The translations under genes were made by a program, and so were the position numbers. The notes below the pieces were generated by a model, which was given only the letters and a program-made list of their open reading frames with translations, ran no database searches and had not been told where the DNA came from. Below are positions 26,518 to 42,926 of a DNA stretch of 64,000 nucleotides, one piece after another. The stretch comes from a virus: the IMG/VR virus record IMGVR_UViG_3300036944_000550, positions 1-64,000 of that record. One strand, 5' to 3'. The number at the start of each line of letters is the position of its first letter. Position 1 is the first letter of the stretch.

Positions 26518-28611
26518 TTAATTCAATAGAGTCCCTGCGGCATTGTAAACATTAATACGGAAATATGCGCTTGAGTTACCGTCTAGAAGATCAGCATCAA
26601 GTCCCGAACCAGAACCATCAACTGTCTTAATCGCATCAAGCATATTGGTGGCAGTGAATGCGCCACCCAGAGAAACTGCAGTTCCTGCCAAAGTGATTGC
26701 GCTGTTTGCAAGTTTAGCATTAGCAATAGAACCTGCCAACATAGTATTGGTAACTGATCCAGTATCACCAGTTGTAACGACAGTGCCAGAAACATCTGGG
26801 AAAGTGAATGTTCTATCTGCAGATAAGGTAGTTGGCGTTAGAATTGCTTCCCAGTTTCCAGTACCACCTGCACGACCGCGAAGTTCTATACCATCTTGTG
26901 TGGATGCTGCACGAGTTAAAACACCACCGCCAGTAGTTGTTAGAGAAGTACCTGTCGCTGCACCAATATTTGGTGTTACTAGGGTTGGAGTATTAGCAAA
27001 TACCAGTGCACCAGAACCAGTTTCGTCAGTAACTACTGAGGCGAGGTTTGCTGCGGTTGGAGTAGCAAGGAATGTTGCAACTCCAGTACCAAGACCAGAA
27101 ACACCAGTGGCAATTGGAAGACCAGTTGCATTGGTTAGAACACCAGATGCGGGAGTACCAAGTGCAGGAGTTACGAGTGTTGGACTGTTAGCAAATACGG
27201 CAGCACCAGTACCAGTTTCATCAGTTAAGGCTGCTAGGAGTTGGGCAGAAGTGAATGATCCAAGTACCGCTGCGTTGCCTACCGATGTGATATGCCCAGT
27301 TAAGTTTGCGTTAGTTGTTACATTACCCGCAGTTAATCCAGATGCTGTACCAGTTACATTGGTCATTACACCAGAAGCAGGAGTACCCAATGCTGGCGTC
27401 GTTAGTGTTGGACTAGTAAGTGTCTTGTTTGTGAGAGTTTGCGTTGCAGTAGTACCAACAACTGGAATATAGTTAGTTCCGTCTACTGTATATTCCCAAA
27501 CATCGGTAGTTTCATTCCATTGAAATGCAACATTAGTAGAAGTACCACGTTCAACTTCGATACCAGCATTTTGTGATGGAGTTCCTGCTTCATTACTATT
27601 TAATGTAATAATATTATCAGCAAGATTGATTGTTTCGGTATTTACTGTAGTAGTAGTTCCAGAAACAGTAAGATTGCCACTAACAGTTAAATCATTGAAT
27701 GTAACGTTAGAACCAGTTCCAACTGCCTGACCAATAGCAACTGCACCATCAGTGATAGTAACACCTGTTCCTGCGCTGAAGTGAGCGCGGACATCTGTTG
27801 CACTTGGACCAGTATATGTAATTACACCAGTTGTATTGTTGTATGCTAGTGATCCATCGCCGCCACTATCTGTTACAGATACCGCACCACGCGCAAGAGC
27901 ATCTGTATATTGAGTAATGGTGGATGAAATTGCACCAGTTGTATTATTATATGAAATCCCTGTACCCGCACTTAGACTTGACAGAGTAATAAAGTTTGCG
28001 CCATTAGTTAGATGACTGGTATTAGTTGGGATGGTAATAGCACCAGTTGTGCTGTTATATGCTCCTGAACCAGCAGTAAAACTTAGGGATGCTCTTGCTA
28101 GTGAGTCGGTATATTGGGTAATAGTGGATGAAATTGCGCCACTAGTAATACTAATGCCTGTGCTTGCGCTGAAGTGAGCACGAACATCAGACGCAGAAGG
28201 TCCAGTGTAAGTAATTACACCAGTAGTATTGTTGTAAGCAAGCGATCCATCGCCACCAGAGTCAGTTACAGATACTGCTGCTCTTGCAGATGCATCATTA
28301 TACTGAGTGATAGAAGTAGAGATAGCACCATCAGTAATGGAAATACCAGTGCTTGCGGTAAATGCGCCTCTTGCTCTTGCGTTTGTGAAATAGAGGTTCG
28401 TTGAACCTTCTGTTATTTCGTCACTGTTATCTTTAGTCTGAATTGCTGAAGTAACATATGCTTCAGTTGCCAGAGGTTTACCACCAGCAGTGGTACCATC
28501 ATGAACAACTACAGTATCTTTTGTTGTGTCGACAGTGACTTCACCGACAGCACCCGTAAAGGTTGAGTGCTGAACAGTAGTCCCTCTTCTAAGTTGTAAA
28601 ATCGTTGCCAT
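26518..28611 (-). CDS. Tail-fibre-like protein with Mtd-type N-terminus and beta repeats
   Basis: A 697-residue probable tail fibre or adhesin. Residues 1-50 form the module [20 protein letters not shown]...[19 protein letters not shown], typical of tail fibres with an Mtd-like N-terminal domain. Residues about 60-300 contain imperfect repeats of roughly 40-60 residues built around [18 protein letters not shown] and DVRAHFSA, visible as DNA repeats. Residues about 300-600 are Thr/Ala/Gly/Val-rich beta repeats ([20 protein letters not shown]). It ends [10 protein letters not shown], close to the VYDSSGNRLN end of the 160-residue protein at 42444. GGAGATA Shine-Dalgarno. The receptor is unknown. 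Confidence 0.82.
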
Positions 28612-29533: not shown

Positions 29534-31225
29534 TTAGTATGTTCCACCGTCGATATTACCGAACGAAGGAGCAGCGCCTGAACCACCAGATAGAAGAACT
29601 TGACCAGCAGTTCCCGCAGCAGTAACACCGAGCGCATCAGTACCATTACCGAACATAACACCGTTAGCAGTAAACGTTGCCGCACCAGTACCACCGTTTG
29701 GAACAGTGATTGCTGAAGCAAGCGACGAAATAGTTCCGCCTTCAAGGTTAGCAACAAGAGTAGCAATGGTATAACCAGTTGCCGCTGTGTTAACAGTTGT
29801 GGTTGGAGCAGCTTGTGAGTCCTTGAAGAGTCTCCACTTACCGTCCGAAGCATCGCGGAAGATACCTGAGTAAAGGTCTAGTGAACCGCTGGTATCATAC
29901 ATACCGAACAGACCGATGTCAACTGCGTCAGTTGTGCTATTGTCGTTACCAACGAATACGAGTGGATCGGTAACAGTTAGAGTTGTCGAGTTAACAGTAG
30001 TTGTCGTTCCCGAAACTGTAAGGTTACCAGCAACTGTTACGTTAGCACCCGAAAGTGTAAGAGCAGTTGTTCCACCAGATGACTTAATGTCGTTTCCTGT
30101 TACAGTCAGATCACCAGCAACAGCAACGTTTGCACCGTCAAGTGTTAGAGCAGTAGCAGAAGATGACTTGATGTCATTACCAGTTACGGTAAGATCGCCA
30201 GCAACAGCAACATCAGCACCAGCAAGTGTCAAAGCAGTAGCAGTAGAAGACTTAATGTCGTTTCCTGTTACTGTTAGGTCACCAGCAACCGAAACATCCG
30301 CACCCGAAAGAGTGATAGAAGTTGTTCCACCAGATGCCTTAATGTCGTTACCGCCAACTGTTAGGTCACCAACAAGGGTAACGTTATCAGTAAGAGCAAC
30401 AGTTACACCAGCATCTTCAGAACCTGAACCTGTGATAGTAACTTGGTTTGCAGTTCCAGCAACAGTAGCAACATAGTTACCAGTTGTGTCAGTTCCAAGA
30501 GCAACCGAGTTGGCAGCAATCGAGGCAACACCTGTTTCGCTGATTGTAATGTCACCAGAAACGGCAGCATAGATGTAATCGCCAATATCTTCAGCAGTAA
30601 TCTTCTTGTTTGTAGTTGCCGAAGCATCATAAACAAGGAATTCGTCCGCATCAGCAAGTGATGTCAGAGCAGTTGCGCCAGTGATATCAGCAACGATAGC
30701 AACTTGGTTGTCTGAAACTGTTGTCTTGACGCCAAGTGAACCAGCAAAAGTCAGAGTTCCACCAGTCGAGAAGGAATCCGTATTTGGCGTACCTTGGTTA
30801 TCGCTGATTGTGAACGAAGACGAAGCAGGTGACGAGAATGCGAGTTGACCTGAACCGTTTGTGGTAAGGATCTGACCGTTTGTACCGTCTGCGGTTGGAA
30901 GGATCAGAGTAAGGTCAGCGGCCAGTGTATCGGCTGCCTTTAGAGTTACTTTGTTGGAACCATTATTTGTTCCTTCAGCAAAGGTTGCTTTGCCACCAAC
31001 TGTTGTGGTTGCATCGATAAGACGAGCATCAACCTTGTCTGTGAAATACTTACCACCAACAGCATGAATTGCGGCAGAACCACCTTCTACTGATTCGATA
31101 TAAAGTTTTGCACTTGCGCCGCTATTGCTTGCGTCTTGTGCGTATGCCATTTCACCTTCTAGGAGGGCGGACGTTGCTGGAGCAGTTGCGCCTGAACTTC
31201 TTTTAATTTGAATAATTGTTGACAT
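29534..31225 (-). CDS. Tail-fibre-like protein with 28-residue tandem repeats
   Basis: A 563-residue probable fibre. The N-terminal module (IIQIKRSSGATAPATSALLEGEMAYA) is related to those of the 80- and 119-residue proteins. Residues about 285-405 hold at least four tandem 28-residue repeats of the form VAVAGDLTVTGNDIKSS + TALTLxGAD, an 84-bp repeat in DNA (about 30013-30369). A Thr/Gly-rich segment with FGMYDTSGSLDLYSGIF-type sequence follows, common in marine-phage fibres. The extreme C-terminus is SFGNIDGGTY. AAGGAA Shine-Dalgarno, strong terminator downstream. Confidence 0.82.
   Translation of the reverse strand: MSTIIQIKRSSGATAPATSALLEGEMAYAQDASNSGASAKLYIESVEGGSAAIHAVGGKYFTDKVDARLIDATTTVGGKATFAEGTNNGSNKVTLKAADTLAADLTLILPTADGTNGQILTTNGSGQLAFSSPASSSFTISDNQGTPNTDSFSTGGTLTFAGSLGVKTTVSDNQVAIVADITGATALTSLADADEFLVYDASATTNKKITAEDIGDYIYAAVSGDITISETGVASIAANSVALGTDTTGNYVATVAGTANQVTITGSGSEDAGVTVALTDNVTLVGDLTVGGNDIKASGGTTSITLSGADVSVAGDLTVTGNDIKSSTATALTLAGADVAVAGDLTVTGNDIKSSSATALTLDGANVAVAGDLTVTGNDIKSSGGTTALTLSGANVTVAGNLTVSGTTTTVNSTTLTVTDPLVFVGNDNSTTDAVDIGLFGMYDTSGSLDLYSGIFRDASDGKWRLFKDSQAAPTTTVNTAATGYTIATLVANLEGGTISSLASAITVPNGGTGAATFTANGVMFGNGTDALGVTAAGTAGQVLLSGGSGAAPSFGNIDGGTY
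30013..30369 (-). repeat. 84-bp tandem repeats in the 563-residue fibre gene
   Basis: Four or more in-frame copies with an 84-bp period, marked by the recurring segment that encodes TVTGNDIK. Neighbouring copies are very similar in DNA, with changes mostly at third codon positions, so copy number could change by recombination. Confidence 0.8.
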
Positions 31226-31475: not shown

Positions 31476-31804
31476 TATTTTGTTACCTCTGGATTAATTA
31501 CAACGATTCCTTCTAGAACTCGTAGCGTTTCGCCATCGCCTGTAATTTCAATATCGTAAACATATCTTCCTGCCTTTATTGCTGAGGTTTGCACAGCAGT
31601 CATTGAAATAGTGACTTCACCATCTTCGGGTAAAGAAACTGCTGCAGTAAAATTAATAGCAGTATTAGTGTAATACGATCTGCGCATTTGTGCCGCTACA
31701 GTATAACCAGTAAGATCTTTTAGATCTCCGTTCTGATCATTTACTGCGAGGGACAAAGAAAAAGTTGTTCCTTGGTCAATAAAGATATTTTGAATTTGTG
31801 CCAT
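31475..31804 (-). CDS. Small beta-sandwich virion protein
   Basis: A 109-residue protein with the pattern IDQGTTFSLSLAVNDQNGD, LTGYTVAAQMRRSY, GRYVYDIEITGDG, RVLEGIVVINPEVT. This is the compact Ig-like beta-sandwich seen in many phage baseplate and fibre adaptor proteins of BppU N-terminal type. It is the first gene of the leftward fibre locus, with a late promoter 27 nt upstream, and diverges from the plus-strand glycosyltransferase block. Confidence 0.72.
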   Translation of the reverse strand: MAQIQNIFIDQGTTFSLSLAVNDQNGDLKDLTGYTVAAQMRRSYYTNTAINFTAAVSLPEDGEVTISMTAVQTSAIKAGRYVYDIEITGDGETLRVLEGIVVINPEVTK

Positions 31805-31814
31805 CGGAAACCCT

Positions 31815-31822
31815 TATAAATT
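31815..31822 (+). promoter_or_regulatory. Possible late-type promoter for the plus-strand block
   Basis: TATAAATT, one mismatch from the late consensus TATAAATA, 32 nt before the first glycosyltransferase-like ATG (31855). It would be divergent to the late promoter of the 109-residue gene. No TTGACA-type promoter was seen on this strand here. Confidence 0.35.
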
Positions 31823-31831
31823 ATACGGGAA

Positions 31832-31839
31832 TATTTATA
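31832..31839 (-). promoter_or_regulatory. Late promoter of the leftward fibre locus
   Basis: Minus-strand TATAAATA 27 nt before the ATG at 31804, in the divergent intergenic region. Confidence 0.7.
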
Positions 31840-31854
31840 ACAACTGAGAATACT

Positions 31855-32532
31855 ATGCAAACGATTTTGATGATAAAATATGGTGAAAAATATTCTGCTG
31901 CAGACGTAAACAGAATAGTAAATGATACTGGTAGAAAATATAACTATGCGTGTATCACCGATGATCCAACAGACCTAGATCCATTAATAAAAGCAATTCC
32001 TATGCCTGAAGATATAGAGGGACATTGGATTAAAATATGGATGTATACTTTGGAGGAATTGGGTGATGTTCTTTACTTAGATCTTGATATCAGAATACAA
32101 AAAAACATTGATCATCTGTGGAATTCTATTGACAATTTTCCTACAATAGTATATACTTATTGGAAGGATAAAGAGTTTCCCGATTATGTTGGTGACACAC
32201 ATGGTATGCGTTTCTTAAGTAATTATAACTCAAGTGTTGTTATGTGGAGAGAAGGAACTGTTCAACATATTTGGGAACACTTCCAATCAGATCCTGATTA
32301 CTACATGGTTAAATACTTTGGTGATGATAGATTTTTGTGGCATGAAGATTTTAGATTTAATTACTTTCCAAAGGGTGAAATTTATTCTTTTGTTTATGGT
32401 GCAGATTATTATGGAATTGACGACCACAATGAATCTTTCTTCTATCGCCCAACTTATACGATAGCATTGTTAAATGGTTTAGATCAATTCCCTGGAGCAG
32501 AAAAAAAGTATGATGAACTTCGTATGCATTAA
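31855..32532 (+). CDS. Glycosyltransferase-like protein, paralogue 1
   Basis: A 225-residue protein with a GT-A-like architecture. The N-terminal strand TILMIKYGEKYSAADVNRIV is shared with the next three genes. The DxD motif sits in YLDLDIRIQKN (about residues 76-86), where family enzymes bind the metal and sugar nucleotide. The conserved C-terminal IYSFVYGADYYG matches the YSxNYG region of the paralogues. It resembles small glycosyltransferases of the GT8/capsular type in general layout. Donor and acceptor are unknown. ATG 31855 is used because the conserved strand starts there. The Shine-Dalgarno (GAG) is weak. It overlaps the next gene by 23 nt. Confidence 0.72.
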   Translation: MQTILMIKYGEKYSAADVNRIVNDTGRKYNYACITDDPTDLDPLIKAIPMPEDIEGHWIKIWMYTLEELGDVLYLDLDIRIQKNIDHLWNSIDNFPTIVYTYWKDKEFPDYVGDTHGMRFLSNYNSSVVMWREGTVQHIWEHFQSDPDYYMVKYFGDDRFLWHEDFRFNYFPKGEIYSFVYGADYYGIDDHNESFFYRPTYTIALLNGLDQFPGAEKKYDELRMH

Positions 32533-33262
32533 GTGGGGTGATAAGTATCCTGCCAAGTATGTAAACAATTTGTATAACATGGTGAAGAAGAACTACGCCA
32601 ACCTGTTTACATTCACGTGTTATACGGATGACACCGATGGTTTAATTTGCGATACTGCACCAATACCTGACGATGGTATCCTGCATCCAAAATATTGGTT
32701 TGGTAAAGAAACATTCTGTTTCGATCGAGCAAAGTTCTCAGTATTTAATTCACACAACTGGTTAGGTTACGAAGGCAACTGGTGCTACTTTGATCTCGAT
32801 ATAGTAATCCAAGAAGATATAACCGATGTAATAGAACTTGCACAGAAACCTCGTATCATTCAATGCCGCTGGCAACCACAGTCTCAAAAACACGACAGAC
32901 TATTCATTGATATTCGCGGAACCTTTTACAACTCTAGTATGATGTTATGGCCTGGAAAATCTTGCGAACACATTTACAGTGATGCATTAGAGAATTCAGA
33001 ATCGATATTTAAGACTTTCTTCAAGGGAACTGATAACTATCATTACTGGCGACAGAGAGATTTCTGGAAAGATATTCCAAGCGGATGGGTATATTCTTGG
33101 AATAGGGGAAAGTACCATCCAGAAGATGTTGAGCGATTTAAGTTTCGTAAAGATGCAAAGATCTGCCTATTCAATACTGACAACGTCCCACACCCTTCAG
33201 CAAAAGAACAGATAGAATTATCTGAATGCGTAGATGAAAATATTATTAGGTTGTGGCAATGA
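32510..33262 (+). CDS. Glycosyltransferase-like protein, paralogue 2
   Basis: A 250-residue paralogue: FVCIKWGDKYPAKYVNNLYN at the N-terminus, LHPKYWFGKETFCFDRAKF, then YFDLDIVIQED with the DxD motif, and late GTDNYHYWRQRDFWKD and GWVYSWNRGKYH. Compared with copy 1 it has an extra region before the DxD (HPKYWFG) shared with copy 3. It starts at ATGATG within the end of copy 1 and has no clear Shine-Dalgarno, so it is probably coupled. It ends in an ATGA overlap with copy 3. Confidence 0.75.
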   Translation: MMNFVCIKWGDKYPAKYVNNLYNMVKKNYANLFTFTCYTDDTDGLICDTAPIPDDGILHPKYWFGKETFCFDRAKFSVFNSHNWLGYEGNWCYFDLDIVIQEDITDVIELAQKPRIIQCRWQPQSQKHDRLFIDIRGTFYNSSMMLWPGKSCEHIYSDALENSESIFKTFFKGTDNYHYWRQRDFWKDIPSGWVYSWNRGKYHPEDVERFKFRKDAKICLFNTDNVPHPSAKEQIELSECVDENIIRLWQ

Positions 33263-34077
33263 GAGTTAATTACGTCTGCTGTAAATGGGGAACAAAGTAT
33301 TCTGCTGAGTTTGTCAACCGTCTTTATCGAATGGCAAAGAAACACACCACCGAAGAATTCGAGTTTCACTTCTATTGCTATACAGATAATAGCGAAGGAT
33401 TCGAAGACGAGATTAAAGTCATCGACTTCCCAGACATCGCTGATATTCATCCCAAATATTGGTTCGGAAGCGAAGACTACAAATATGGTATGGCAAGGTG
33501 TTGGGACAGACCAAAAACCTTCATCTTCAATACGCATAATTTTGCAGAAGACAAACCGACTGGTAGATTTGTATTCTTCGATCTTGACGTTATCATTCAA
33601 AACGATTTAACGCCAATCATTACCTACGATCTAGACAACCCCACCAAGTTTCGATCTTGGTGGCAAGATCCTCGCCCAATGAAGTCACGCAACTTTAAAC
33701 TATCGCATGGTGCATATACGAATGGTAGTTGCATGGTTTGGTCAGATGATCAGACAGAATGTATATGGCAAGATGTTCTAGAGCACCAAGAACGAATCTG
33801 GTTTACATTTACAGATGGAACTGACAACTACCACAGTTGGCGGTGGGGCGACTTTAGTAATACCCCTCTGTGGAAACATTTCCCAAACACCTTTGCTTAC
33901 TCATACAATCGCGGTCGCGACTGGGATTCAGGGGATCTTGAAGTTGGTATATATAGAAAAGACTGTATTGTTTGTGTTTTTAATGTGGATCTACTTCCAT
34001 TCACAGACAATAGCAGAGGAAAAGTGAAACAGGAATCCTTGGTCGATCCTGATCTTTTAGAGCATTGGAATGTTTGA
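33259..34077 (+). CDS. Glycosyltransferase-like protein, paralogue 3
   Basis: A 272-residue paralogue, the longest. It has VNYVCCKWGTKYSAEFVNRL, IHPKYWFGSEDYKYGMAR, FFDLDVIIQND (DxD), a longer loop with FRSWWQDPRPMKSRNFKLSHG, then GTDNYHSWRWGDFS and FAYSYNRGRDWD. It is closest to copy 2. ATG 33259 overlaps the previous stop as ATGA. The upstream in-frame GTG at 33253 is less likely. The stop overlaps copy 4 by one base. Confidence 0.75.
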   Translation: MRVNYVCCKWGTKYSAEFVNRLYRMAKKHTTEEFEFHFYCYTDNSEGFEDEIKVIDFPDIADIHPKYWFGSEDYKYGMARCWDRPKTFIFNTHNFAEDKPTGRFVFFDLDVIIQNDLTPIITYDLDNPTKFRSWWQDPRPMKSRNFKLSHGAYTNGSCMVWSDDQTECIWQDVLEHQERIWFTFTDGTDNYHSWRWGDFSNTPLWKHFPNTFAYSYNRGRDWDSGDLEVGIYRKDCIVCVFNVDLLPFTDNSRGKVKQESLVDPDLLEHWNV

Positions 34078-34760
34078 TGATTAGTATTTACACAGTGAAG
34101 TGGGGAACAAAATATAGTGTTGACCATGTTAATAAAATACTTGAGCAATGCAGAGAACACATAACAACTGATTTTGATTTTTACTGTTTGACTGAACATA
34201 CCATCGGTTTACATTCTGACGTTATCGTAATTCCTTTTCCAGAAGATAATTACTATGAAAAATGGTGGAATAAATTATACTTATTCGATAAGCAAGTTGT
34301 ATCTCAACGTGGAGAAAAACTATTTCTGGATCTTGATATAGTTATTCAAAACAATATCGATTGCATAGTAGACCATGACCCAGAAGATGGTTTGACATTT
34401 GTTCACACTCACTGGCACAACATGAAGAAAATGAAACGCGATACACAAGACATTCCTCGTGCATACACCGACCTAAATTCTAGTGTGTTAAGATGGAATG
34501 ATAGATTAGATACTGATAAGATTACCAAGTTTGTTACAGACTATCCCGACCAAATGTTTTTTCATTATCGAGGTCTTGATAATCTTTTCGGTCACCAGCG
34601 CGACCGCTTATTGAAAATTGATTTTTTTCCTGATGGTTGGGTGTATAGTTACAACTACGGATACATGTGGCCGATTGATACTAGAGAACAAGTTATCCGA
34701 ACCGAACCACTAATTTGCTTATATGACTCAATGGAAAGACCACAAGATGTTAAATTATAA
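34077..34760 (+). CDS. Glycosyltransferase-like protein, paralogue 4
   Basis: A 227-residue paralogue: ISIYTVKWGTKYSVDHVNKI, FLDLDIVIQNN (DxD), YRGLDNLFGHQRDRLLKIDF, GWVYSYNYGYMWP. It lacks the HPKYWFG insert of copies 2 and 3 and so resembles copy 1 in size. ATG 34077 forms a TGATG overlap with the stop of copy 3, giving tight translational coupling. It overlaps the methyltransferase-like gene by 14 nt. Confidence 0.75.
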   Translation: MISIYTVKWGTKYSVDHVNKILEQCREHITTDFDFYCLTEHTIGLHSDVIVIPFPEDNYYEKWWNKLYLFDKQVVSQRGEKLFLDLDIVIQNNIDCIVDHDPEDGLTFVHTHWHNMKKMKRDTQDIPRAYTDLNSSVLRWNDRLDTDKITKFVTDYPDQMFFHYRGLDNLFGHQRDRLLKIDFFPDGWVYSYNYGYMWPIDTREQVIRTEPLICLYDSMERPQDVKL

Positions 34761-35403
34761 TTATTTGAATAACTATCGTTATTGGGGCGAAGGATTGGAT
34801 AAAATCAATCACGAACTGCCATGGAAACATGAAGACTTTCGTAAGTCTCTGAATCCGAATACTATGGATGCTGCTATTTGGTTAGTAGAAGAACTACTGA
34901 AAGTAGAAGATATCCCAGAAGAATTGAATATTACAATTTTGAATTCATGGTTAGGATTTCCTCTGCTACCGTTACTCTGCGAAAATTTAAATGTCAAGAA
35001 GATTAATTTGATTGATATTGATAAAGATGCGTTGGAACTATCAAAAGTATTCAATCGGTTTTATAGCGATAGTGGAATAGAACTAGACCATATCAACTGG
35101 GATGTTCCCTTTGCATATCATGACATCAATGCACTAGAAACTGATGTAGTAATTTCTATTGGGTGCGAGTCAATGTATCCGTTGAAGAAAATGACGACCG
35201 CAAACAAGGATTGTATCTTTGCTTGTCAGTCTTCAAATGTTTTTAGAGAGATGTATGGTATCAATTGTGTTCCATCGATCGAAGAGCATGTTGAGAATGT
35301 TGGAGTTACTGATGTTTTCTACGAGGGATCTATTAAGCAGTCATACTATAGTTGGGATGGCAAGGTCGAGTTTGACCGCTTCATGGTAATTGGAAAAAAG
35401 TAA
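34747..35403 (+). CDS. SAM-dependent methyltransferase-like protein
   Basis: A 218-residue protein with a Rossmann-like pattern: ITILNSWLGFPLLPLLCENL (strand, loop, helix), then KINLIDIDKDALELSKVF, where the acidic end of strand 2 would bind the SAM ribose, and TDVVISIGCESMYPL for strand 4. The usual GxGxG is replaced by SWLGFP, so cofactor binding is uncertain. ATG 34747 with GGAAAG upstream is preferred to an in-frame ATG at 34723. The gene sits inside the glycosyltransferase operon, so sugar or protein methylation is plausible but inferred. Confidence 0.6.
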   Translation: MLNYNYLNNYRYWGEGLDKINHELPWKHEDFRKSLNPNTMDAAIWLVEELLKVEDIPEELNITILNSWLGFPLLPLLCENLNVKKINLIDIDKDALELSKVFNRFYSDSGIELDHINWDVPFAYHDINALETDVVISIGCESMYPLKKMTTANKDCIFACQSSNVFREMYGINCVPSIEEHVENVGVTDVFYEGSIKQSYYSWDGKVEFDRFMVIGKK

Positions 35404-36003
35404 ATGATGCTTGGGACAAACACGGATATTAAAAAAATAACTGAGAATTGGATTCCAGAAAATTCTGTAGGTGCAGAAATCGGTATCTGGAGAGGTGATG
35501 CGTCAAAACAACTTTTGACAAAATGTAGTTATCTACATATGATAGATCCATATAATATCAGCGTATATGAAAATACTACTGATTGGTTGAATATGGGGTA
35601 CGAAAAAATATTAGAGAGATATTCTTCATTAGTAGGTTCGACAGACCCAGCAGATTTTCAAAAATTTTATGACGATCTCTATCTTGACGTTTGTGAACAA
35701 TTTAAAGATTTACCTGCAACTATCCATCGAATGACTTCTCGGGATTGGTTTTCTTCTTATACTGGAGAAAAATTGGACTGGATTTATATCGATGGTGATC
35801 ATAGTTATGAGGGTGTGATGGAAGATTTGGTATCTAGTCTTGATGTGGTAAAACAAAATGGATTAATTTTTGTTGATGATTATTCAATACATAATAGTTT
35901 ACATCCTGGAGTTAGAGCAGCAGTCAGAGATTTCTGCTATGAGAGAAAATTAAAATTCAAGAGATTATATCTCAATACGTGCATGATAGAATTGGGGACA
36001 TAA
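35404..36003 (+). CDS. Class I methyltransferase (Methyltransf_24-like)
   Basis: A 199-residue methyltransferase. It shows VGAEIGIWRGDASKQLL (motif I, about residues 22-38), HMIDPYN after strand 2, LDWIYIDGDHSYEGVMEDL (strand 4 with the DGDHSYE signature of this family) and NGLIFVDDYSIHNSLHPGVR. Relatives are common in sugar and capsule biosynthesis clusters. It starts directly after the previous stop at ATGATG. The likely target is a glycan made by the neighbouring enzymes, which is an inference from position. Confidence 0.85.
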   Translation: MMLGTNTDIKKITENWIPENSVGAEIGIWRGDASKQLLTKCSYLHMIDPYNISVYENTTDWLNMGYEKILERYSSLVGSTDPADFQKFYDDLYLDVCEQFKDLPATIHRMTSRDWFSSYTGEKLDWIYIDGDHSYEGVMEDLVSSLDVVKQNGLIFVDDYSIHNSLHPGVRAAVRDFCYERKLKFKRLYLNTCMIELGT

Positions 36004-36004
36004 T

Positions 36005-36742
36005 ATGGCAAGAGCAAGAGTCGTCGCACCACCACCACAAGATTATATTCCAGAACCTTTAGTATCAGCACCACCTCCTCCCGAGGAAGTGGTCGCGGAA
36101 GAATGGATCGATGGAAACTTCCAAGAAGAAATTATCGAAGTTGAGATTAATGAACCTTCCCAAGAAGAACTTGATAGGGAAAGAATCGCGCAAGAAAAAC
36201 ATGAAGAAATACAGAGACAAAAACTTGCAATAGAAGAAGAATCAAAAGTAGCAGCAGAAACAATTGCTAAAGCAAAAGAGATTCTAGAAAATCCGCCTGT
36301 CGTAATTGAGAAGGTAATCGAAACAGTAATCGAAACTGTTCATGTTACAGATCCGAAACTAGTTGAAGAATTACAAATCCTCAAAGAGGAAAATGAAAAA
36401 CTTGCCAGAGAAAATGCTGCAGCAGTAAGAGCAAAAGAAGAACAAATTTTAAAGGCGCGACAACAGGCAACTGAACAGCGCAGCAATCAACACATGGTTC
36501 AATTAAACATGACACCAAAAATTCCATCGTTAATTAGTAAAATTAAAACAGTATTTCGAAACCGTCGAATTAAGTCTGCTACTAATGTTGGAATTAAAAA
36601 CTATGAAACTGCAATCCTCGAGCGAGCAAGAATTGCAGTTCCTAAGTTGTTAGATGATATTGAAAAAATGCATGAGCAGTTGACTATTCTAGAAGATCTG
36701 CTCACAAAATATAGTGAGGTTAAGAGCACTCAGGAAAAGTGA
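36005..36742 (+). CDS. Coiled-coil protein with proline-rich N-terminus
   Basis: A 245-residue protein of unknown function. Residues 1-35 are rich in Pro and acidic residues (VVAPPPQDYIPEPL, APPPPEEVV). Residues about 55-155 are a long charged coiled coil (Glu/Lys/Gln/Ala), and the C-terminal 70 residues are helical and basic. It has no membrane segment. GGGGACA Shine-Dalgarno one base after the methyltransferase stop. It is the last gene of the plus-strand block and overlaps the convergent oxygenase-like gene by 13 nt. A scaffold for the upstream enzymes or a structural role are both possible. Confidence 0.65.
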   Translation: MARARVVAPPPQDYIPEPLVSAPPPPEEVVAEEWIDGNFQEEIIEVEINEPSQEELDRERIAQEKHEEIQRQKLAIEEESKVAAETIAKAKEILENPPVVIEKVIETVIETVHVTDPKLVEELQILKEENEKLARENAAAVRAKEEQILKARQQATEQRSNQHMVQLNMTPKIPSLISKIKTVFRNRRIKSATNVGIKNYETAILERARIAVPKLLDDIEKMHEQLTILEDLLTKYSEVKSTQEK

Positions 36743-36760
36743 GAAGCGTCTTCACCTGAG
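36729..36760. terminator. Hairpin at convergent gene ends
   Basis: Inverted repeat CTCAGG...CCTGAG enclosing GAAG-CGT-CTTC, located across the overlapping 3' ends of the plus-strand coiled-coil gene and the minus-strand oxygenase-like gene. It could stop transcription in both directions. No U tract is present on either side, so the call is weak. Confidence 0.35.
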
Positions 36761-37407
36761 ATATCTTCAATCATTGACCGCCAGATTTCTAGATGCGGTA
36801 CAACATATCCTAGTGTCAATCTTTTAGCAGAGTTACCGCAGCAGTGGTATACAATTTTATTCGGATCGCTACGATCACCGAAATGACCAACCTTACATGA
36901 CCAACCGATAGGATCAACCATAGTTACGATTTCCTTTGTAACTGGATCCAAGTAGCGAAAGTATCCACCATTTTCTTCTGTATTGTAAGTAATCAGAATA
37001 TTATATCCTGATGCATTCCAATTGGTATGCCAACCCATGAAACCATTTTCGGGATAATAGGTAAACACCGCATTGTTTCTTGCACCAAGATAACTCATTA
37101 TCTCAGAATTCGTTGCTTGCTGTCTTCTACCATATTCGGTTGGAAACCATGTTTGTCCATGTGCCTGAGACATGTCAGTACACCATGCAACATCAGGGAA
37201 ACCAACATGTCGCTCACCTTTACTAACGATATGATTAAGATACTGTTCATCAGTAGCAGTTTCCATATTCAATCCACCTCGACGTATTTCTTGATGCCTT
37301 TCTGGACCCAGCACGAGATGTTGATCATTTTGAGCAAAGAACCATTCTGTGAATGGATCTAAAATATCACTTAGTTCTTTAGAAACTGAATTTGTAAATT
37401 GTAGCAT
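36730..37407 (-). CDS. Putative 2OG-Fe(II) oxygenase-like protein
   Basis: A 225-residue protein with the layout of prolyl-hydroxylase-type double-stranded beta-helix enzymes: FTYYPENGFMGWHTNWN (candidate first ligand H127), YNILITYNTEENGGYFRYLD, and KIVYHCCGNSAKRLTLGYVV (candidate distal His H188 and 2OG-binding Arg R196). The usual HxD/E is HTN here (N129), so the metal site may be degenerate or altered. It follows the fifth glycosyltransferase gene in the same operon. Hydroxylation of protein or sugar is a guess. AGGACAC Shine-Dalgarno. Confidence 0.6.
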   Translation of the reverse strand: MLQFTNSVSKELSDILDPFTEWFFAQNDQHLVLGPERHQEIRRGGLNMETATDEQYLNHIVSKGERHVGFPDVAWCTDMSQAHGQTWFPTEYGRRQQATNSEIMSYLGARNNAVFTYYPENGFMGWHTNWNASGYNILITYNTEENGGYFRYLDPVTKEIVTMVDPIGWSCKVGHFGDRSDPNKIVYHCCGNSAKRLTLGYVVPHLEIWRSMIEDISGEDASHFS

Positions 37408-37417
37408 GTGTGTCCTG

Positions 37418-38113
37418 TTAATCTAATAAAGAATGTGGAATTGTATAATGATAAATCACTACTGGTCGACCCTGCAATTCTTCTTGTTTATATCCGGAAA
37501 CAAAGTTCCATCTGGCATCTGGATCAGGGAATCTGGCAGTTTTAACGCCAAAGTCGAAATGATTTAGGAGTCTCCACATTGTGAATGTGTCCCACTGCAA
37601 TGCTGATTTGGGATAATGTTTACGATCCCATCCTGGTTTATTCTGTTCCCAGTACTCGTCATACCATGCACGCATGAGTTTCAATGTTTGTTCATTGTTT
37701 CGGTAGATAAACAATCCACAGTGCTCAGTCATTTCTTCTGTGTCAGATAACTTAGTCAGTGCTGCGTTATACGGGCGATTAGCAGTAAAGAGGATATCTA
37801 CATCTTTGGGGATTTGATCAAAGATCTTTTGGATGTCTTCATGCTCAACTTCCATGTCACAATCCATGTAGGTTGTTAAGTCATACGGAGTTTGATCAAG
37901 CGCCCAAAGTTTCGCTCGTTTATCTCTTGGGACATTCTCAGTTACAACTGTGTCAAAGATTTCATAATCATCTGGTTGAACCCATTCCTCATGCGTGAAG
38001 AATGTTATTTTTGCATCAGGATAGAAATCGCGTAGAGATATAGCGGAATTTCTCGCCGCTCTATAATAACCTTTTCTTACCGTTGCAACATAAAGGAAAC
38101 CATTATTCTGCAT
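37418..38113 (-). CDS. Glycosyltransferase-like protein (fifth copy, divergent)
   Basis: A 231-residue GT-A-like protein. GFLYVATVRKGYYRAARNSAISL and DAKITFFT form the first Rossmann unit. TTYMDCDMEV holds a DxD motif (about residues 84-86). TEHCGLFIYRNN and DTFTMWRLLNHFDFGVK are typical later elements of small phage glycosyltransferases that act on nucleotide sugars. It is not closely related to the four plus-strand copies. ATG 38113 follows GAAGCAG inside the end of the 151-residue gene (11-nt overlap). It is co-transcribed with the 2OG-like gene from the promoter at 38594. Confidence 0.75.
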   Translation of the reverse strand: MQNNGFLYVATVRKGYYRAARNSAISLRDFYPDAKITFFTHEEWVQPDDYEIFDTVVTENVPRDKRAKLWALDQTPYDLTTYMDCDMEVEHEDIQKIFDQIPKDVDILFTANRPYNAALTKLSDTEEMTEHCGLFIYRNNEQTLKLMRAWYDEYWEQNKPGWDRKHYPKSALQWDTFTMWRLLNHFDFGVKTARFPDPDARWNFVSGYKQEELQGRPVVIYHYTIPHSLLD

Positions 38114-38558
38114 CAACTGCTTCTCGCACGATAGCAGTATTTGCTTCTTCCTGTTGTAGAAGAATTACCGTGTACGCAGTAACTTCCATAATGTTTTTTG
38201 CTTTGCGGATCTTAGATTTTAACTCGCGATTTTTCGAGGACTTGATTAGATCGATCTCAAATGCATCTAATTTAGCAGCGAACAGTTGCTCTTGCTGCAT
38301 ACGAGTCTTGTCAACCTTCTGGCGTTCAATGTTGTGCTTGATATGTTGATTGCGGTCATCAAATCGTTTCTTGGTATTCGCATCAATCTGCTCGACGCTA
38401 TACTTCTTCATCAATTCATCATAATCTCGATTAGTACCATCGTTCATAATTGATGCAGTTGCTCGTTTACCCGTATCGGAATAAACGAACTCCGCAATCA
38501 CATGTTGTTTTTCTTTGTTCGCCCAGTAAGGATTTTCAATAGTGCGTGTACTAGTCAT
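38103..38558 (-). CDS. Hypothetical helical protein
   Basis: A 151-residue protein, not recognised. A short beta-rich N-terminus (HVIAEFVYSDTGKRATASIM) is followed by a long charged helical region from about residue 55 to 140. It resembles small tail or assembly-chaperone proteins in composition. It lies directly after the repeat-protein genes but has its own early-type promoter. GGAGATT Shine-Dalgarno. Confidence 0.7.
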   Translation of the reverse strand: MTSTRTIENPYWANKEKQHVIAEFVYSDTGKRATASIMNDGTNRDYDELMKKYSVEQIDANTKKRFDDRNQHIKHNIERQKVDKTRMQQEQLFAAKLDAFEIDLIKSSKNRELKSKIRKAKNIMEVTAYTVILLQQEEANTAIVREAVDAE

Positions 38559-38627: not shown

Positions 38628-40406
38628 TTATACGGTGCGAACCCAAAGTTTTATGGTCGATACAGTTTCTTTAGTTGCGATCACTGTCGCACCCGAGAAG
38701 TTGCTTGAATATGTTCCACTAAAGTTACTGGCATAATTTCCTGTATAGTTTCTAGAACCTGAATAATATCCAGTGTAGTTTCCTGTAAAGAATCCAGTGT
38801 AGTTACCAGTATATGTTGCAGTTCCTGCAAAGAACCCAGTATAAAACCCTGTAAAGAACCCAGTGTAAGTACCCGTATATGTTGCAGTTCCTGCGTAAGC
38901 ACCTGTAAAGAATCCAGTATAATTACCAGAATATGTTCCAGTGTAAGTTGCTGGTCCAACATAGTTACCAGTAAAGAATCCTAAGTATGTACCGAGATAT
39001 GTTCCATTATAGTTACCTGCATAGTTTCTAGAACCAGAATAGGTGCCGAGATAGTTGCCGGAGAAGTTACCTAGATAGTTACCTGAGAAGTTGCCCGTAT
39101 AAGTTCCAAGATAGTTACCCTGGAAATTTCCATTAAGGAATCCGCCAAAGAATCGTGCATATGTTCCGAGATAGTTACCAGAGAAACCTTGCGAGTAAGT
39201 TCCTGTGAAGTTTCGCGAATATGTTCCGAGATAGTTTCCAGCATAGTTACCTGCATAGTTTCTAGAACCAGCATAATTTCCTGAGTAGTTTTTACTGAAG
39301 TTACTGGTGTAGTTACCAGAATAACCAGCAGTCCCTACAAAGTTACCAACATAGTTTCCACTGAAACCTCTCGAGTAAGTACCTGAATAGTTTGCTGGAC
39401 CAACATAACCGCCACTAAAGTTGTTTGCGAATGCTCCAGAATATGCTGCGGAATAGTTTGCTGGACCCACGAAACCGCCACTAAAATTGTTTGCGAATGC
39501 CCCAGTATATGTCCCAGCATATGCTGCAGAATAGTTTCTTGAACCTGAGAAGGTGCCGAGATAGTTACCCGAGAAGTTACCCAGATAGTTCTGTGGTGTT
39601 ACTTGCTCTCTGGTATCAGCAAACTCATCACCCATCGCAACCCAAGTACCACTCACTGGTGCTGTAGATTGAACCTTATATGTGCCGATTCCCGTGTCAA
39701 TAATTCTGTTTCTAAAACTCGGAAGCATCTGTAGGATTTCAGAAGATGACATTTCTTTGACATCTTTGGTATCAATCAGTTTTAGTGGTTTGAGATTAGA
39801 GTCTGACAATGTAGTTGCAGCAGTTTTCTGCCATAGATATGTTACTGTGTTGCCGCCATTAGCAACATCAGTTAATGTGTATCGAGCAACCCATGTACCA
39901 CCTGATGGAGCAGTTGGTTGTAGTTTATATTGCCCAGCAGTATATGTGGTCTCGGTGATCATCGCATTGATTGCATAATCTAAGATTTCACTATCAATTT
40001 GACCATCGGACATTTCTTTAATACCATCGTCATATTTCAACGGACGATTGGTAATGCTTTCTGCCGCAGCAGCAGTAACCTGTTTTGCAGTGTATGTGAC
40101 AACATTCGCATTTGCCATGTATGTACCAGAAGCGTCCGTATAAGCCGTACCAACTGCATCTGCTGGATGAGTTCCTGTCGCCGCTTGAAGATCTGTGTCA
40201 ACAAACGTGCCGATCGAAGTACCAGAACCACTGTTGTTTGTTGTGATGTTGATTTCAGCAGTGCCAGTACCATCTGAGTTTGCGCCGAAAGAAACTGTCA
40301 GAGTTTGTGCAATGTAATTCTTTACTTCATCGACAGACATCTGTTGTAGACCCTGCCAGTTTACAGCAGAAACTGGTGTTGCCGAAGATTTATTTCTCAA
40401 AACCAT
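38628..40406 (-). CDS. Tetrapeptide-repeat (G-N/T-Y/F-x) adhesin-like protein 1
   Basis: A 592-residue protein. The first 270 residues are a globular head, related to that of the next protein, including two copies of the APSGGTWVARYTLTD-type unit (APVSGTWVAMGDEFAD is the second). Residues about 274-570 are an almost uninterrupted array of tetrapeptides, G-[NT]-[YF]-[LSTA], for example SGNYLGTYSG and TGFFTGFYTG, interrupted by GSRNYAGNY units. The last 22 residues (TKETVSTIKLWVRTV at the end) form a short cap shared with protein 2. A long fibrous structure is likely. ATG 40406 is used (AAGGA upstream) in place of the GTG at 40427. Many N-Y-T/S triplets could be glycosylation sites, which is inference. 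Confidence 0.78.
   Translation of the reverse strand: MVLRNKSSATPVSAVNWQGLQQMSVDEVKNYIAQTLTVSFGANSDGTGTAEINITTNNSGSGTSIGTFVDTDLQAATGTHPADAVGTAYTDASGTYMANANVVTYTAKQVTAAAAESITNRPLKYDDGIKEMSDGQIDSEILDYAINAMITETTYTAGQYKLQPTAPSGGTWVARYTLTDVANGGNTVTYLWQKTAATTLSDSNLKPLKLIDTKDVKEMSSSEILQMLPSFRNRIIDTGIGTYKVQSTAPVSGTWVAMGDEFADTREQVTPQNYLGNFSGNYLGTFSGSRNYSAAYAGTYTGAFANNFSGGFVGPANYSAAYSGAFANNFSGGYVGPANYSGTYSRGFSGNYVGNFVGTAGYSGNYTSNFSKNYSGNYAGSRNYAGNYAGNYLGTYSRNFTGTYSQGFSGNYLGTYARFFGGFLNGNFQGNYLGTYTGNFSGNYLGNFSGNYLGTYSGSRNYAGNYNGTYLGTYLGFFTGNYVGPATYTGTYSGNYTGFFTGAYAGTATYTGTYTGFFTGFYTGFFAGTATYTGNYTGFFTGNYTGYYSGSRNYTGNYASNFSGTYSSNFSGATVIATKETVSTIKLWVRTV
38690..39590 (-). repeat. 12-bp periodic repeat array in adhesin 1
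   Basis: DNA with a 12-bp period encoding the G-x-Y/F-x tetrapeptides. Recurrent units on the plus strand are ...ccagagaagtt.. and ..gagatagttacc... variants. Codon 2 alternates between Asn and Thr and codon 3 between Tyr and Phe. Confidence 0.8.
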
Positions 40407-40408
40407 GT

Positions 40409-42442
40409 TTATGCTGTCCTTATCCACAATTTAACAGATGACACTGTTTCTTTAGTTGCTTGTATTGTTGCGCCGGAATATGTTCCTATAAAGTTATTTA
40501 TATAACTCCCCAAGTAATTTCCAGTGTAATTTGTTGTTCCAGTGTAAAAACCAGTATATGCTATTCCTACGCCAGTGAAATACCCTGTATAGGTTCCAGT
40601 GTACGCTGTTCCAGTAAAGGTTGCAGAATATGGAGTTCCTGGAGTTCCGCTGAAAAACCCTGAGTACGCTGGTCCTGGACCAGTATAGAATCCAGTATAT
40701 GAAGTTCCTGGACCACTGAAAAACCCTGAGTACGCTGGTCCTGGACCAGTATAGAATCCAGTATATGAAGTTCCTGGACCTGTAGGTCCAGTATAAGTTC
40801 CTGCATACGGCTGACCATATGATGGACCTGCTGGATTCGAGTATGATGGACCTGCTGGATTCGAATATGATGGACCAGCTGGGTTTGATCCTGCAGGTGT
40901 AGAATATGATGGCGGTCCCGCATAGAATCCAGTGTAATATGCCTTGTCATAACCAGTGACAAAATACAGGGAAGGGCCTTGGAAATTTCCTGCATAACCT
41001 AAATTTGATGCATAGAATCCAGCATAATTTTGTGGTGCCGAAAACTCTCCTATGTAAACTTCTCCAGGTTCATTTGGAGCGATAGGTATCTCAAAGTATC
41101 CAGTATAGTTGAGACCTGGACCTGTATAAAACCCAGTATAGTTTGCAGCAAAGATACCACTAGTATAATATACTACCTGTTCTCTTTGGGGCGGAGGACC
41201 ATCGTAATTCCCTCCATAACTGCCAGTATATGGTGTTGAATATGATGGACCTGCTGGATTATTACCTGCTGGATTCGAGTATGATGGACCTGCTGGATTC
41301 GAATATGATGGACCAGCAGGTGTAGAATAAAATGGACCACCTATGTAATTACCAGTATAATTTGCTCCTGGATTTGCTGGACCCGTATAAGTTAATCCAG
41401 TATAATTAGTAGTACTAGAAAAATTACCAGTATAATTGCTGGACCCTGTATAGGTTGTTCCAGTATATGCTAAAGGAGAGGAAAAAGATCCAGTATAATT
41501 GCTGGAAGTACTATAGGTTGTTCCAGTATATGGGGAACTATAAGCAGGTCCAGTAAAATTACTGCTGTAATTTCCTGATGCAGAATAAGGCGCAGAATAT
41601 GGAAAAGGACCAGTATAATTACCAGTATAATTACCAGTATAATTACTACTGTAATTACCAGCGTAGTTCTGTGGCGTTACTTCTTCGCGAGTATCCGTGA
41701 ATGTGTTACCTGTTTGAACCCAAGTGCCGCCACTAGGCGCATCTGATTGGATTTTATAAGTTCCGATACCTGTTTCAATAATTCTATTTCTAAAGACTGG
41801 AAGCATCTGTTCGATTTCTGCTTCAGTCATCTGCTTGCAGTTACCACCATTAAACGTTCTTAGTGGTGTGAGATCCGCTGTTGGTAGTGAAGATGAAACT
41901 GTTTTCTGCCACAGATATGTTACAGTGTTTCCACCTTGTGCTGTATCTGTTAATGTATACCGCGAAACCCAAGTTCCGCCTGATGGTGCAGTTGCTTGCA
42001 GTTTATATTGTCCAGCAGTATATGTTGATTCAGATACCATTGCATTAATACACAGATCCATTGTGCTATCAATGTCACCATCTACCATTTCTTCTAGACG
42101 AGAATCCCATGCTAATGGTCTGTTGGTAATACTTTCCACTGCTGCAGCAGTAACCTGTTTAGCAGTGTATGTTGTTGTAGAAACTGCACCAGTAGCAGGA
42201 TGCGTTCCGATAGATTCGGTTCTTGTCGTATCGACAAACGTACCGATCAAAGTTCCTGCACCTGAGTTATTTGTAGTAATATTAATTTCAGCAGTTCCAG
42301 TACCATCTGTTACTGCAGCAAACTTTTCTGTGATAACATTAGCAATATAATTTTTTACCTCTGCATCGGTCATGGTCTGCAAACCGCTGATGTTTGCAGA
42401 AGTGATTGGGGAACCTGTTGCCTTGACCTTTAGAGGGTTCAT
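40409..42442 (-). CDS. Tetrapeptide-repeat adhesin-like protein 2
   Basis: A 677-residue paralogue. The N-terminal 255 residues align with protein 1 (SANISGLQTMTDAEVKNYIA, NITTNNSGAGTLIGTFVDT, QYKLQATAPSGGTWVSRYTL). From about 258 the sequence becomes a repeat region with NYTG tetrapeptides, PSYSNPAG octamers and SYTGFYTGPGPAYSGFFSGPG 22-residue units (two perfect DNA copies). The shared C-terminal cap TKETVSSVKLWIRTA follows. It begins one base after the stop of the 160-residue gene, with AGGTTAA as a possible Shine-Dalgarno, and shows more Pro and Ser than protein 1. A receptor-binding or decoration fibre is inferred. Confidence 0.78.
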   Translation of the reverse strand: MNPLKVKATGSPITSANISGLQTMTDAEVKNYIANVITEKFAAVTDGTGTAEINITTNNSGAGTLIGTFVDTTRTESIGTHPATGAVSTTTYTAKQVTAAAVESITNRPLAWDSRLEEMVDGDIDSTMDLCINAMVSESTYTAGQYKLQATAPSGGTWVSRYTLTDTAQGGNTVTYLWQKTVSSSLPTADLTPLRTFNGGNCKQMTEAEIEQMLPVFRNRIIETGIGTYKIQSDAPSGGTWVQTGNTFTDTREEVTPQNYAGNYSSNYTGNYTGNYTGPFPYSAPYSASGNYSSNFTGPAYSSPYTGTTYSTSSNYTGSFSSPLAYTGTTYTGSSNYTGNFSSTTNYTGLTYTGPANPGANYTGNYIGGPFYSTPAGPSYSNPAGPSYSNPAGNNPAGPSYSTPYTGSYGGNYDGPPPQREQVVYYTSGIFAANYTGFYTGPGLNYTGYFEIPIAPNEPGEVYIGEFSAPQNYAGFYASNLGYAGNFQGPSLYFVTGYDKAYYTGFYAGPPSYSTPAGSNPAGPSYSNPAGPSYSNPAGPSYGQPYAGTYTGPTGPGTSYTGFYTGPGPAYSGFFSGPGTSYTGFYTGPGPAYSGFFSGTPGTPYSATFTGTAYTGTYTGYFTGVGIAYTGFYTGTTNYTGNYLGSYINNFIGTYSGATIQATKETVSSVKLWIRTA
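40470..41668 (-). repeat. Mixed repeat array in adhesin 2
   Basis: It contains a perfect 66-bp tandem duplication (copies beginning near 40651 and 40717), three perfect 12-bp units cagtataattac at 41611-41646, and a block of 24-bp units encoding PSYSNPAG present at about 40827-40890 and again at about 41270-41325. It is built like a locus that changes length by slippage or recombination. Confidence 0.85.
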
Positions 42443-42443
42443 T

Positions 42444-42926
42444 TTAGTTTAACCTGTTACCACTCGAGTCATATACAATTAAATTAGTTACACGATACCA
42501 ATCTACGGCATCTTGTGCAATCAATTCAACAGATGAATATGGTGATAGATTAACACCAACGTTGACAGTTCCACCGTCAATGACATCTGAAGTATTTGGA
42601 TACACCTTAATGGTAACTGCTGTGGTATTGATAACCTTGATGGTCAAACCAGCGGCAGCAGTCGGGAGTTTTACACCTTGATTTGCTGTTGCTGTTGTGA
42701 TCATGTTGACAGTTTTTGTCAGCGCAGTAGCATCACCTTGAGTGGTTCCTGCTGCTGTAACTGTGCCTGCGACCGATTTGGTCAGGGTTCCGGTAAGTGT
42801 TAAATCTGCAAAAGAAGGACTAGCGCCAGATTCATACTTATCTGTATTCAAATTGCTGAAGTTATTATCAACTTCAGTATTCGTCAGCGGAGTCCCCTTT
42901 ACAGATCTAAGGGTAAGAGTGCTCAT
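42444..42926 (-). CDS. Virion structural protein, fibre-associated
   Basis: A 160-residue protein. The N-terminus TLRSVKGTPLTNTEVDNNFSNLN is a common start of marine-phage tail-fibre-associated proteins. It is followed by PSFADLTLTGTLTKS and a beta-rich domain (PTAAAGLTIKVINTTAVTIK, PYSSVELIAQDAVDWYRV). It ends VYDSSGNRLN, close to the end of the 697-residue fibre. AAGGATAA Shine-Dalgarno. Confidence 0.72.
   Translation of the reverse strand: MSTLTLRSVKGTPLTNTEVDNNFSNLNTDKYESGASPSFADLTLTGTLTKSVAGTVTAAGTTQGDATALTKTVNMITTATANQGVKLPTAAAGLTIKVINTTAVTIKVYPNTSDVIDGGTVNVGVNLSPYSSVELIAQDAVDWYRVTNLIVYDSSGNRLN

Follow-up and report, generated by a model that had tools for sequence, protein, structure and literature searches.

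A probable phage tail fibre with a shaft predicted to fold back as a single-chain hairpin, linked to hydroxylase-like and glycosyltransferase genes

The stretch of DNA treated here (the window) is 64,000 nucleotides long and comprises positions 1 to 64,000 of the IMG/VR virus record IMGVR_UViG_3300036944_000550, a T4-like phage of 96.5 kb. Two neighbouring open reading frames (ORFs) on its minus strand, which overlap by 19 bases, encode repeat protein 1 (38628..40427, 599 amino acids (aa), GTG start) and repeat protein 2 (40409..42442, 677 aa, ATG start). Each consists of a globular head, a long shaft with aromatic residues four positions apart and a short C-terminal strand, and the shaft of protein 2 is richer in Pro. 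It is likely that these proteins are receptor-binding tail fibres in which a single giant antiparallel hairpin forms the shaft, and linked enzymes probably modify them after translation. Computational support for this comes from the equal lengths of the two shaft arms, the joints that are mirrored between them, the insertion of the shaft in the third module of the head, the gene linkage and the predicted fold of a linked oxygenase.

The proposed fibre would be built as follows. The head would consist of three copies of a small α/β module, and the β-hairpin loop of the third copy would have grown to hundreds of residues. The chain would leave the head as an extended strand with Tyr or Phe every fourth residue on one face, turn at a short motif (Gly-rich in protein 1, Pro-rich in protein 2) and come back in register, and its C-terminal strand would complete the third module. 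Segments of about 22 residues would end in joints pairing across the arms and, because of this pairing, any change in fibre length would have to be matched between the two arms. The fibre would be anchored to the virion by its head and would contact the receptor with the turn at mid-chain or with a globular domain located there. A hydroxylase-like protein and a glycosyltransferase would modify the fibre after translation, and a small protein, cc151, would help its assembly.

The four-residue period described in the earlier note, which was made from the letters of the DNA alone, is borne out in both proteins. The 320-aa shaft of protein 1 has 59 pairs of aromatic residues four positions apart, where 2000 shuffles gave 18.5 on average and 32 at most, and in that of protein 2 there are 38 such pairs against a shuffled mean of 18.0 and maximum of 31; the lag-4 autocorrelation is 0.69 and 0.29, respectively. 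The consensus G-[NT]-[YF]-x proposed in that note fits the window, but across the family, of which about 85 distinct homologues were collected, the only constant feature is an aromatic residue at every fourth position, and the Gly and Asn positions drift in distant members. For example, S, A, K or R is often found in place of Gly in the homologues L055 and L054; the homologue L048 has a lag-4 autocorrelation of 0.92. The aromatic spacings in the shaft are mainly 4 and 6, together with doublets of spacings 1 and 3 (sum 4), which supports the suggestion that Tyr and Phe face one side.

Protein 1 consists of the head (residues 1-276, 39600..40427), an outgoing shaft arm (residues 277-422, 39162..39599), the mid-shaft turn motif YARFFGGFLNGNF (residues 423-435, 39123..39161), which is the proposed fibre tip, a returning arm (residues 436-585, 38673..39122) and the C-terminal strand (residues 586-599, 38631..38672), all on the minus strand. 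The motif Y-[TI]-L-Y-Y-G-G-F-V-G-G is located at mid-shaft in many homologues, and the N-arm was measured between the head end (DTREQV) and this motif, the C-arm between the motif and the C-terminal LWVRT. The N-arm/C-arm pairs thus obtained are 38/55, 64/81, 78/95, 116/133, 150/167 (window protein 1), 178/195 and 246/263. Motif matches were counted without reference to the midpoint, and in 40 of the 42 (41 distinct proteins, 27 shaft lengths, 93-509 aa) the C-arm exceeds the N-arm by 14-20 residues, mostly by exactly 17, as in window protein 1; the regression over the matches gives r = 0.991 and a slope of 0.998. Of the two off-values, one comes from L107, where the motif matches a second time.

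Variants without the strict motif (PFFGGF, Pro-rich PxxPGE and others) have non-repeat sequence at or near the predicted midpoint, and in second-type proteins, which lack the motif, the sequence at the predicted midpoint is likewise outside the repeat and often rich in Pro. In window protein 2, whose head was delimited by alignment with that of protein 1 (residues 1-255, 41678..42442, minus strand), the turn PNEPGE (residues 456-461, 41060..41077, minus strand) sits where the protein 1 family predicts the midpoint (about residue 455) and leaves arms of 202 and 206 aa. The antiparallel alignment of these arms scores 54.5 against a block-shuffle mean of 26.5 (standard deviation 7.1, maximum 53.5, n = 1000), and their parallel alignment gives p 0.48. 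In addition, two distant homologues have their only long non-repeat domain in the middle region of the shaft: aa 1395-1484 in L055 (centre 1439.5, shaft midpoint 1436.5, shaft 2075 aa) and aa 1233-1358 in L056 (centre 1295.5, shaft midpoint 1258, shaft 1718 aa). These globular-looking domains are candidates for a receptor-binding tip.

The four-residue period is interrupted about every 22 residues by hexapeptide steps (four tetrapeptides plus a hexapeptide), and these breaks are mirrored about the turn. In window protein 1 they lie 39/61/83/105/131 residues before the turn and 38/64/86/108/130 after it. In 31 non-redundant shafts, which were selected by a motif near the midpoint and are related in sequence, the numbers of breaks in the two arms correlate (r = 0.93), mirrored break positions are a mean of 2.9 aa apart against 8.7 for shifted controls, and the break types agree in 145 of 150 mirrored pairs (SS 81, PP 64, mixed 5). 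Joints of the form xGSRNY stand opposite xGSRNY joints, most often at offset -1, and GPANY or GTAGY joints opposite GTATY or GPATY joints, most often at offset +3. Asymmetric joint orders are palindromic, as with SPPPSSSS before the turn and SSSSPPPS after it; in shafts with such an order 57/61 breaks match as a mirror image and 31/61 as a direct repeat, and parallel matching of the arms was rejected as the poorer. Furthermore, a motif-free axis scan found the best axis at the midpoint, within 4-8 units, in seven of the examined protein-2-type homologues, and within 16 units of it in 12 of 25 distant proteins, where 2.0 would be expected.

Such symmetry could in principle be an accident of duplication or conversion in a tandem array, with a shaft that is a solenoid or disordered and does not fold back. 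Two observations suit this explanation: DNA duplications, in units of 24 and 66 bp, are clearly at work in the evolution of the array, and AlphaFold2 gave no confident shaft. However, duplication gives a direct order and DNA inversion would not keep the protein, so the palindromic order points to a structural constraint, and the arm lengths co-vary over 38-246 aa. Therefore, an accident of duplication seems very improbable. A 12-residue super-period, seen in L048 and in the relative from Phage C48C1 described below, was considered as a sign of a three-sided solenoid; it is absent in protein 1 and was ascribed to DNA duplication.

The heads of the two proteins are 62% identical, and their C-termini, TKETVSTIKLWVRTV and TKETVSSVKLWIRTA (in protein 2 residues 662-677, 40412..40459, minus strand), are almost alike in the last 15 residues, in agreement with the earlier note, which had read these ends as parts of a head-shaft-cap fibre and had proposed structure prediction as a check. 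The AlphaFold2 model of protein 1, made as a monomer with 30 sequences, is confident for the head, where the predicted local distance difference test (pLDDT) is mostly 80-91, and for the last ten residues (87, strand 592-597). In the model the head forms three similar E-E-H-E-hairpin modules (about residues 24-116, 129-203 and 214-281 plus 577-597), each with strands, a helix of about 17 residues (32-48, 141-158, 228-245) and then a hairpin. The hairpin loop consists of residues 81-106 in module 1 and 190-191 in module 2, and in module 3 the hairpin strands are residues 262-281 and 577-597 with the entire shaft in between. Modules 2 and 3 are homologous by hidden Markov model (HMM-HMM) alignment (96.5%, E 1e-9), and it is with the C-terminal strand that the end of module 2 (TVTYLWQKT) aligns best, in slight excess over controls (14.0 against a maximum of 13.5 in 60 shuffled ones). 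Moreover, residue numbers across the modelled strands 284-297 and 559-572 add up to 856, which agrees with the covariation axis to within 2. These results give computational support to the view that the third head module carries the shaft as a very large insertion in its hairpin. Since the C-terminus would be the returning strand of that module, the supposed cap would be part of the head and lie at the base; that is, a fibre with a globular head is supported and a distal cap is not. The head and the C-terminus are likely to be at the same end, with the chain midpoint as the fibre tip.

Equal arms and mirrored joints are equally predicted by the main structural rival, an intermolecular antiparallel fibre in which two chains lie head-to-tail with their midpoints in register and the C-terminal strand of each completes the head of its partner. 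The monomer model cannot separate such a domain-swapped strand from an intramolecular one. A straight dimer, however, has no need of a turn, whereas nearly all examined shafts have a non-repeat motif with Gly-Gly or Pro at the midpoint, and L055 and L056 have a whole domain of about 90-125 aa in this region. In addition, heads at both ends would leave the receptor-binding end unavailable. We regard the dimer as unlikely and prefer the single-chain hairpin, in which the shaft would be in extended β conformation and paired within the molecule.

The position of the genes suggests what the fibre would do. On one side of them is the gene for a DUF4815 structural protein of 2105 aa, followed further out by baseplate genes, and on the other are those for neck, terminase, portal and capsid proteins, so their placement is tail-fibre-like, and the C48C1 relative is likewise located among baseplate, tail and neck genes. 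This is consistent with a tail fibre that would use the turn as its tip. No virion proteomics of any family member was found, and the repeat proteins might be secreted or cell-surface proteins made during infection instead of virion fibres, but the location among baseplate, tail and neck genes in both the window and C48C1 makes this improbable, and a tail fibre remains the preferred reading.

Three further minus-strand genes are linked to the repeat genes, and these had been missed by the earlier note. They are cc151 (38103..38558), a small coiled-coil-like protein and possible assembly factor which adjoins the shaft protein in linked loci; GT (37418..38116), a putative GT-A glycosyltransferase with an invariant D85-x-D87; and OXY (36730..37407), a predicted 2-oxoglutarate (2OG)-Fe(II) oxygenase of prolyl-hydroxylase fold with the pattern H127-x-N129...H188...R196. 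The order repeat gene, cc151, GT, OXY was seen in the repeat-based search, and the four-gene cassette is present in most IMG/VR loci fetched. Separate scans with OXY, GT and cc151 gave a head-bearing or period-4 gene upstream whenever enough DNA was present, and a scan with distant OXY proteins gave one in 76/76 loci with room, 3 of them by head match only. In L297 and L300 a second head-bearing repeat protein lies between GT and OXY, so that the cassette can be interrupted.

The AlphaFold2 model of OXY (pLDDT 91.9) has a double-stranded β-helix fold, and its top Foldseek match is the prolyl-4-hydroxylase of Pseudomonas putida (probability 1.00, E 5e-5); PHD2 was also matched. OXY shares with these enzymes the fold and the H...H...R spacing, with H127, H188 and R196 invariant, and unlike them it has HxN in place of HxD, the usual metal-site acid position being an invariant Asn, and gave no sequence-level match in Pfam or PDB. 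The D-x-D of GT is invariant, its Pfam matches (Glycos_transf_2 and Nucleotid_trans only) are below threshold, and a GT homologue matches HpnI (E 0.0023). For cc151 a chaperone role may be proposed; its match to the chaperone Skp is weak and non-significant (E 0.028). The linkage and the fold suggest that OXY and GT modify the fibre. In collagen and Skp1, one protein of a repetitive or dedicated kind is the target of both a hydroxylase and a glycosyltransferase, hydroxylation coming first; the analogy is functional only, as the shaft is not Gly-X-Y and not homologous. N-x-S/T sequons were considered as a modification site (18/38 Asn in the window), but they are not consistently kept in relatives (C48C1 24/75, L055 34/121) and an N-glycosylation site is therefore not claimed.

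The two enzymes may, alternatively, protect against superinfection by changing the host surface, for example its lipopolysaccharide, and be linked to the fibre only through a common host-recognition island. Such a role was proposed for the glycosyltransferases of the pelagimyophage host recognition cluster (PMC7029224), and further putative glycosyltransferases lie in the window at about 31798-34077 (sub-threshold GT8 match). Against this, the cassette order is kept in relatives at about 31% identity, no cassette without a fibre gene was found in the loci of the repeat-, OXY-, GT- and cc151-based searches, and the OXY fold is closest to protein prolyl hydroxylases. Host-surface modification is thus a possible but doubtful explanation, and modification of the fibre itself is preferred.

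Several points weigh against the hairpin fibre and its modification as a whole. The shaft has pLDDT of only 25-40 in the monomer model and its three-dimensional structure is thus not given. Foldseek of the whole protein 1 model gave no PDB match below E 1 and no BFVD match below 0.001, and with no PDB structural match and no convincing BFVD one for the head, virion attachment rests on gene position. L044 (8001-9482), with a C-arm minus N-arm of 36, is a true exception to the equal-arm rule, which an assembly error or a recent indel without counterpart in the other arm may explain. In very long homologues (C48C1, L055, L274, L310 and others) the best aromatic axis is not the midpoint, and the several globular insertions of the C48C1 protein make the position of its turn uncertain. 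The selection by motif and the relatedness of the 31 shafts make the p-values of that set optimistic, so the unselected counts are safer. Finally, OXY has HxN where most 2OG-Fe(II) oxygenases have HxD/E, and OXY relatives are also found outside the cassette, in three places in C48C1 and in L327.

With regard to distribution, an IMG/VR scan with protein 1 gave 54 loci, and many of the loci fetched show the same contigs in overlapping stretches. At the sensitivity used, just one of 50,697 phage records, that of Phage C48C1 (Kyanoviridae), has a relative (WJE88074.1, 3347 aa, "hypothetical protein"), and the sole match of cc151, GT and OXY in the same records is also C48C1. The C48C1 protein has a homologous head and a period-4 aromatic shaft followed by cc151, GT and OXY, and it differs from the window proteins in being much longer, Arg-rich and provided with several globular insertions. 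The bacterial genome collection gave three loci in two metagenome-assembled genomes (MAGs); these appear to be phage contigs assigned to the wrong bin. The Bifidobacterium breve MAG contig CALPIE020000128.1 (L326), which likewise looks wrongly binned, carries a close copy of the cassette, with OXY 90% identical. The tblastn matches in phiKZ, Enterococcus and Aeromonas phages were weak, and the phiKZ stretch inspected is without such a repeat.

Searches for known families were negative. With the repeat proteins and the cassette, nothing above threshold was obtained in Pfam, PHROGs and NCBIfam, both repeat proteins were not above chance in Pfam and PHROGs, and the phage tail-fibre families known in Pfam and PHROGs gave no above-threshold profile match. 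A PDB sequence search with the head, oxygenase and glycosyltransferase profiles and the protein 1 shaft gave nothing significant. A pentapeptide repeat was rejected, as the autocorrelation is 0.69 at lag 4 and -0.23 at lag 5 and Pfam gave no match, and so was a collagen-like fibre, as the Gly period is four and weak in distant members, again with no Pfam match; BFVD matches to collagen-like proteins were not credible (E 0.005, TM (template modelling) score 0.1 or less). Hence, the statement in the earlier note that the repeat is neither of these patterns holds, its remark that it knew no named family for the repeat agrees with the searches of Pfam, PHROGs and PDB sequences, and no account of the repeat or the cassette was found in searches of the open-access literature.

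A close likeness in sequence pattern is to the GN[VL]T tail-fibre repeats of cyanophages (Synechococcus phages S-RIM2 and syn9), which also have a four-residue Gly/Asn period, belong to putative fibres and are located in the region before the neck genes; unlike the present repeats they are aliphatic and not aromatic, their runs are far shorter, the head is unrelated and no oxygenase or glycosyltransferase is annotated nearby. The pelagimyophage host recognition cluster, a hypervariable region before the neck genes, likewise contains fibre genes and glycosyltransferases, but neither the repeat protein nor a fixed four-gene cassette is described in the excerpted part of its account (PMC7029224). 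The triple-stranded β-helix shaft of T4 gp5 has three chains wrapped round a common axis (PMC4576200); multi-chain fibres of this type resemble the present one in having a long, thin shaft rich in β structure, which here is only predicted, whereas here two arms of a single chain mirror each other. Judged from the sequences, the fold-back symmetry would argue against a parallel three-chain topology, and a trimer of hairpins would be compatible with it. No match to a repeat family, fold or cassette already described was obtained, and the chance that the shaft represents a new kind of architecture is substantial. The fuller proposal, that of a new fibrous architecture in which a length-adjustable, single-chain antiparallel hairpin fibre has joints matched across its arms and is matured by a dedicated phage hydroxylase and glycosyltransferase, is made tentatively, with slightly less than even confidence.

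Other genes in the window are as follows. A 160-aa protein (42444-42926, minus strand) with a fibre-like N-terminus, LTNTEVDNNFSNLN, and without family match is encoded directly upstream of both repeat genes in closely related loci. A 697-aa virion protein (26518-28611, minus strand) with a Major tropism determinant N-terminal domain (Pfam Mtd_N, E 6e-14) is another candidate receptor-binding protein, and a 563-aa structural protein (29534-31225, minus strand) with an 84-bp tandem repeat (3.9 copies) is possibly a third fibre. The island at 31798-34077, on the opposite (plus) strand and adjoining the cassette, has ORF starts which resemble paralogous GT8-like glycosyltransferases, the paralogy being judged by eye from L326 and the Pfam GT8 match being a single one below threshold. 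Beyond it lie a methyltransferase gene (35404-36003) and two unmatched ORFs, and the genes at 34723-35403 and 36005-36742 are found again in most closely related loci. The gene psbA, sought in the record as a clue to the host, is absent.

Phage fibres decide which bacteria get infected. If the reading given here is true, one folded-back chain would be a different solution from the well-studied shafts wound from several chains, and the tip would be encoded in the middle of the gene, so the usual search for the receptor-binding part at the C-terminus would be misdirected. In addition, the palindromic protein pattern is a simple sequence test for hairpin fibres elsewhere, and the fixed linkage of a hydroxylase-like protein and a sugar transferase makes the hydroxylation and glycosylation of phage fibres directly testable. 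If this modification is true, it would be a phage counterpart of collagen-type modification acting on a viral adhesin.

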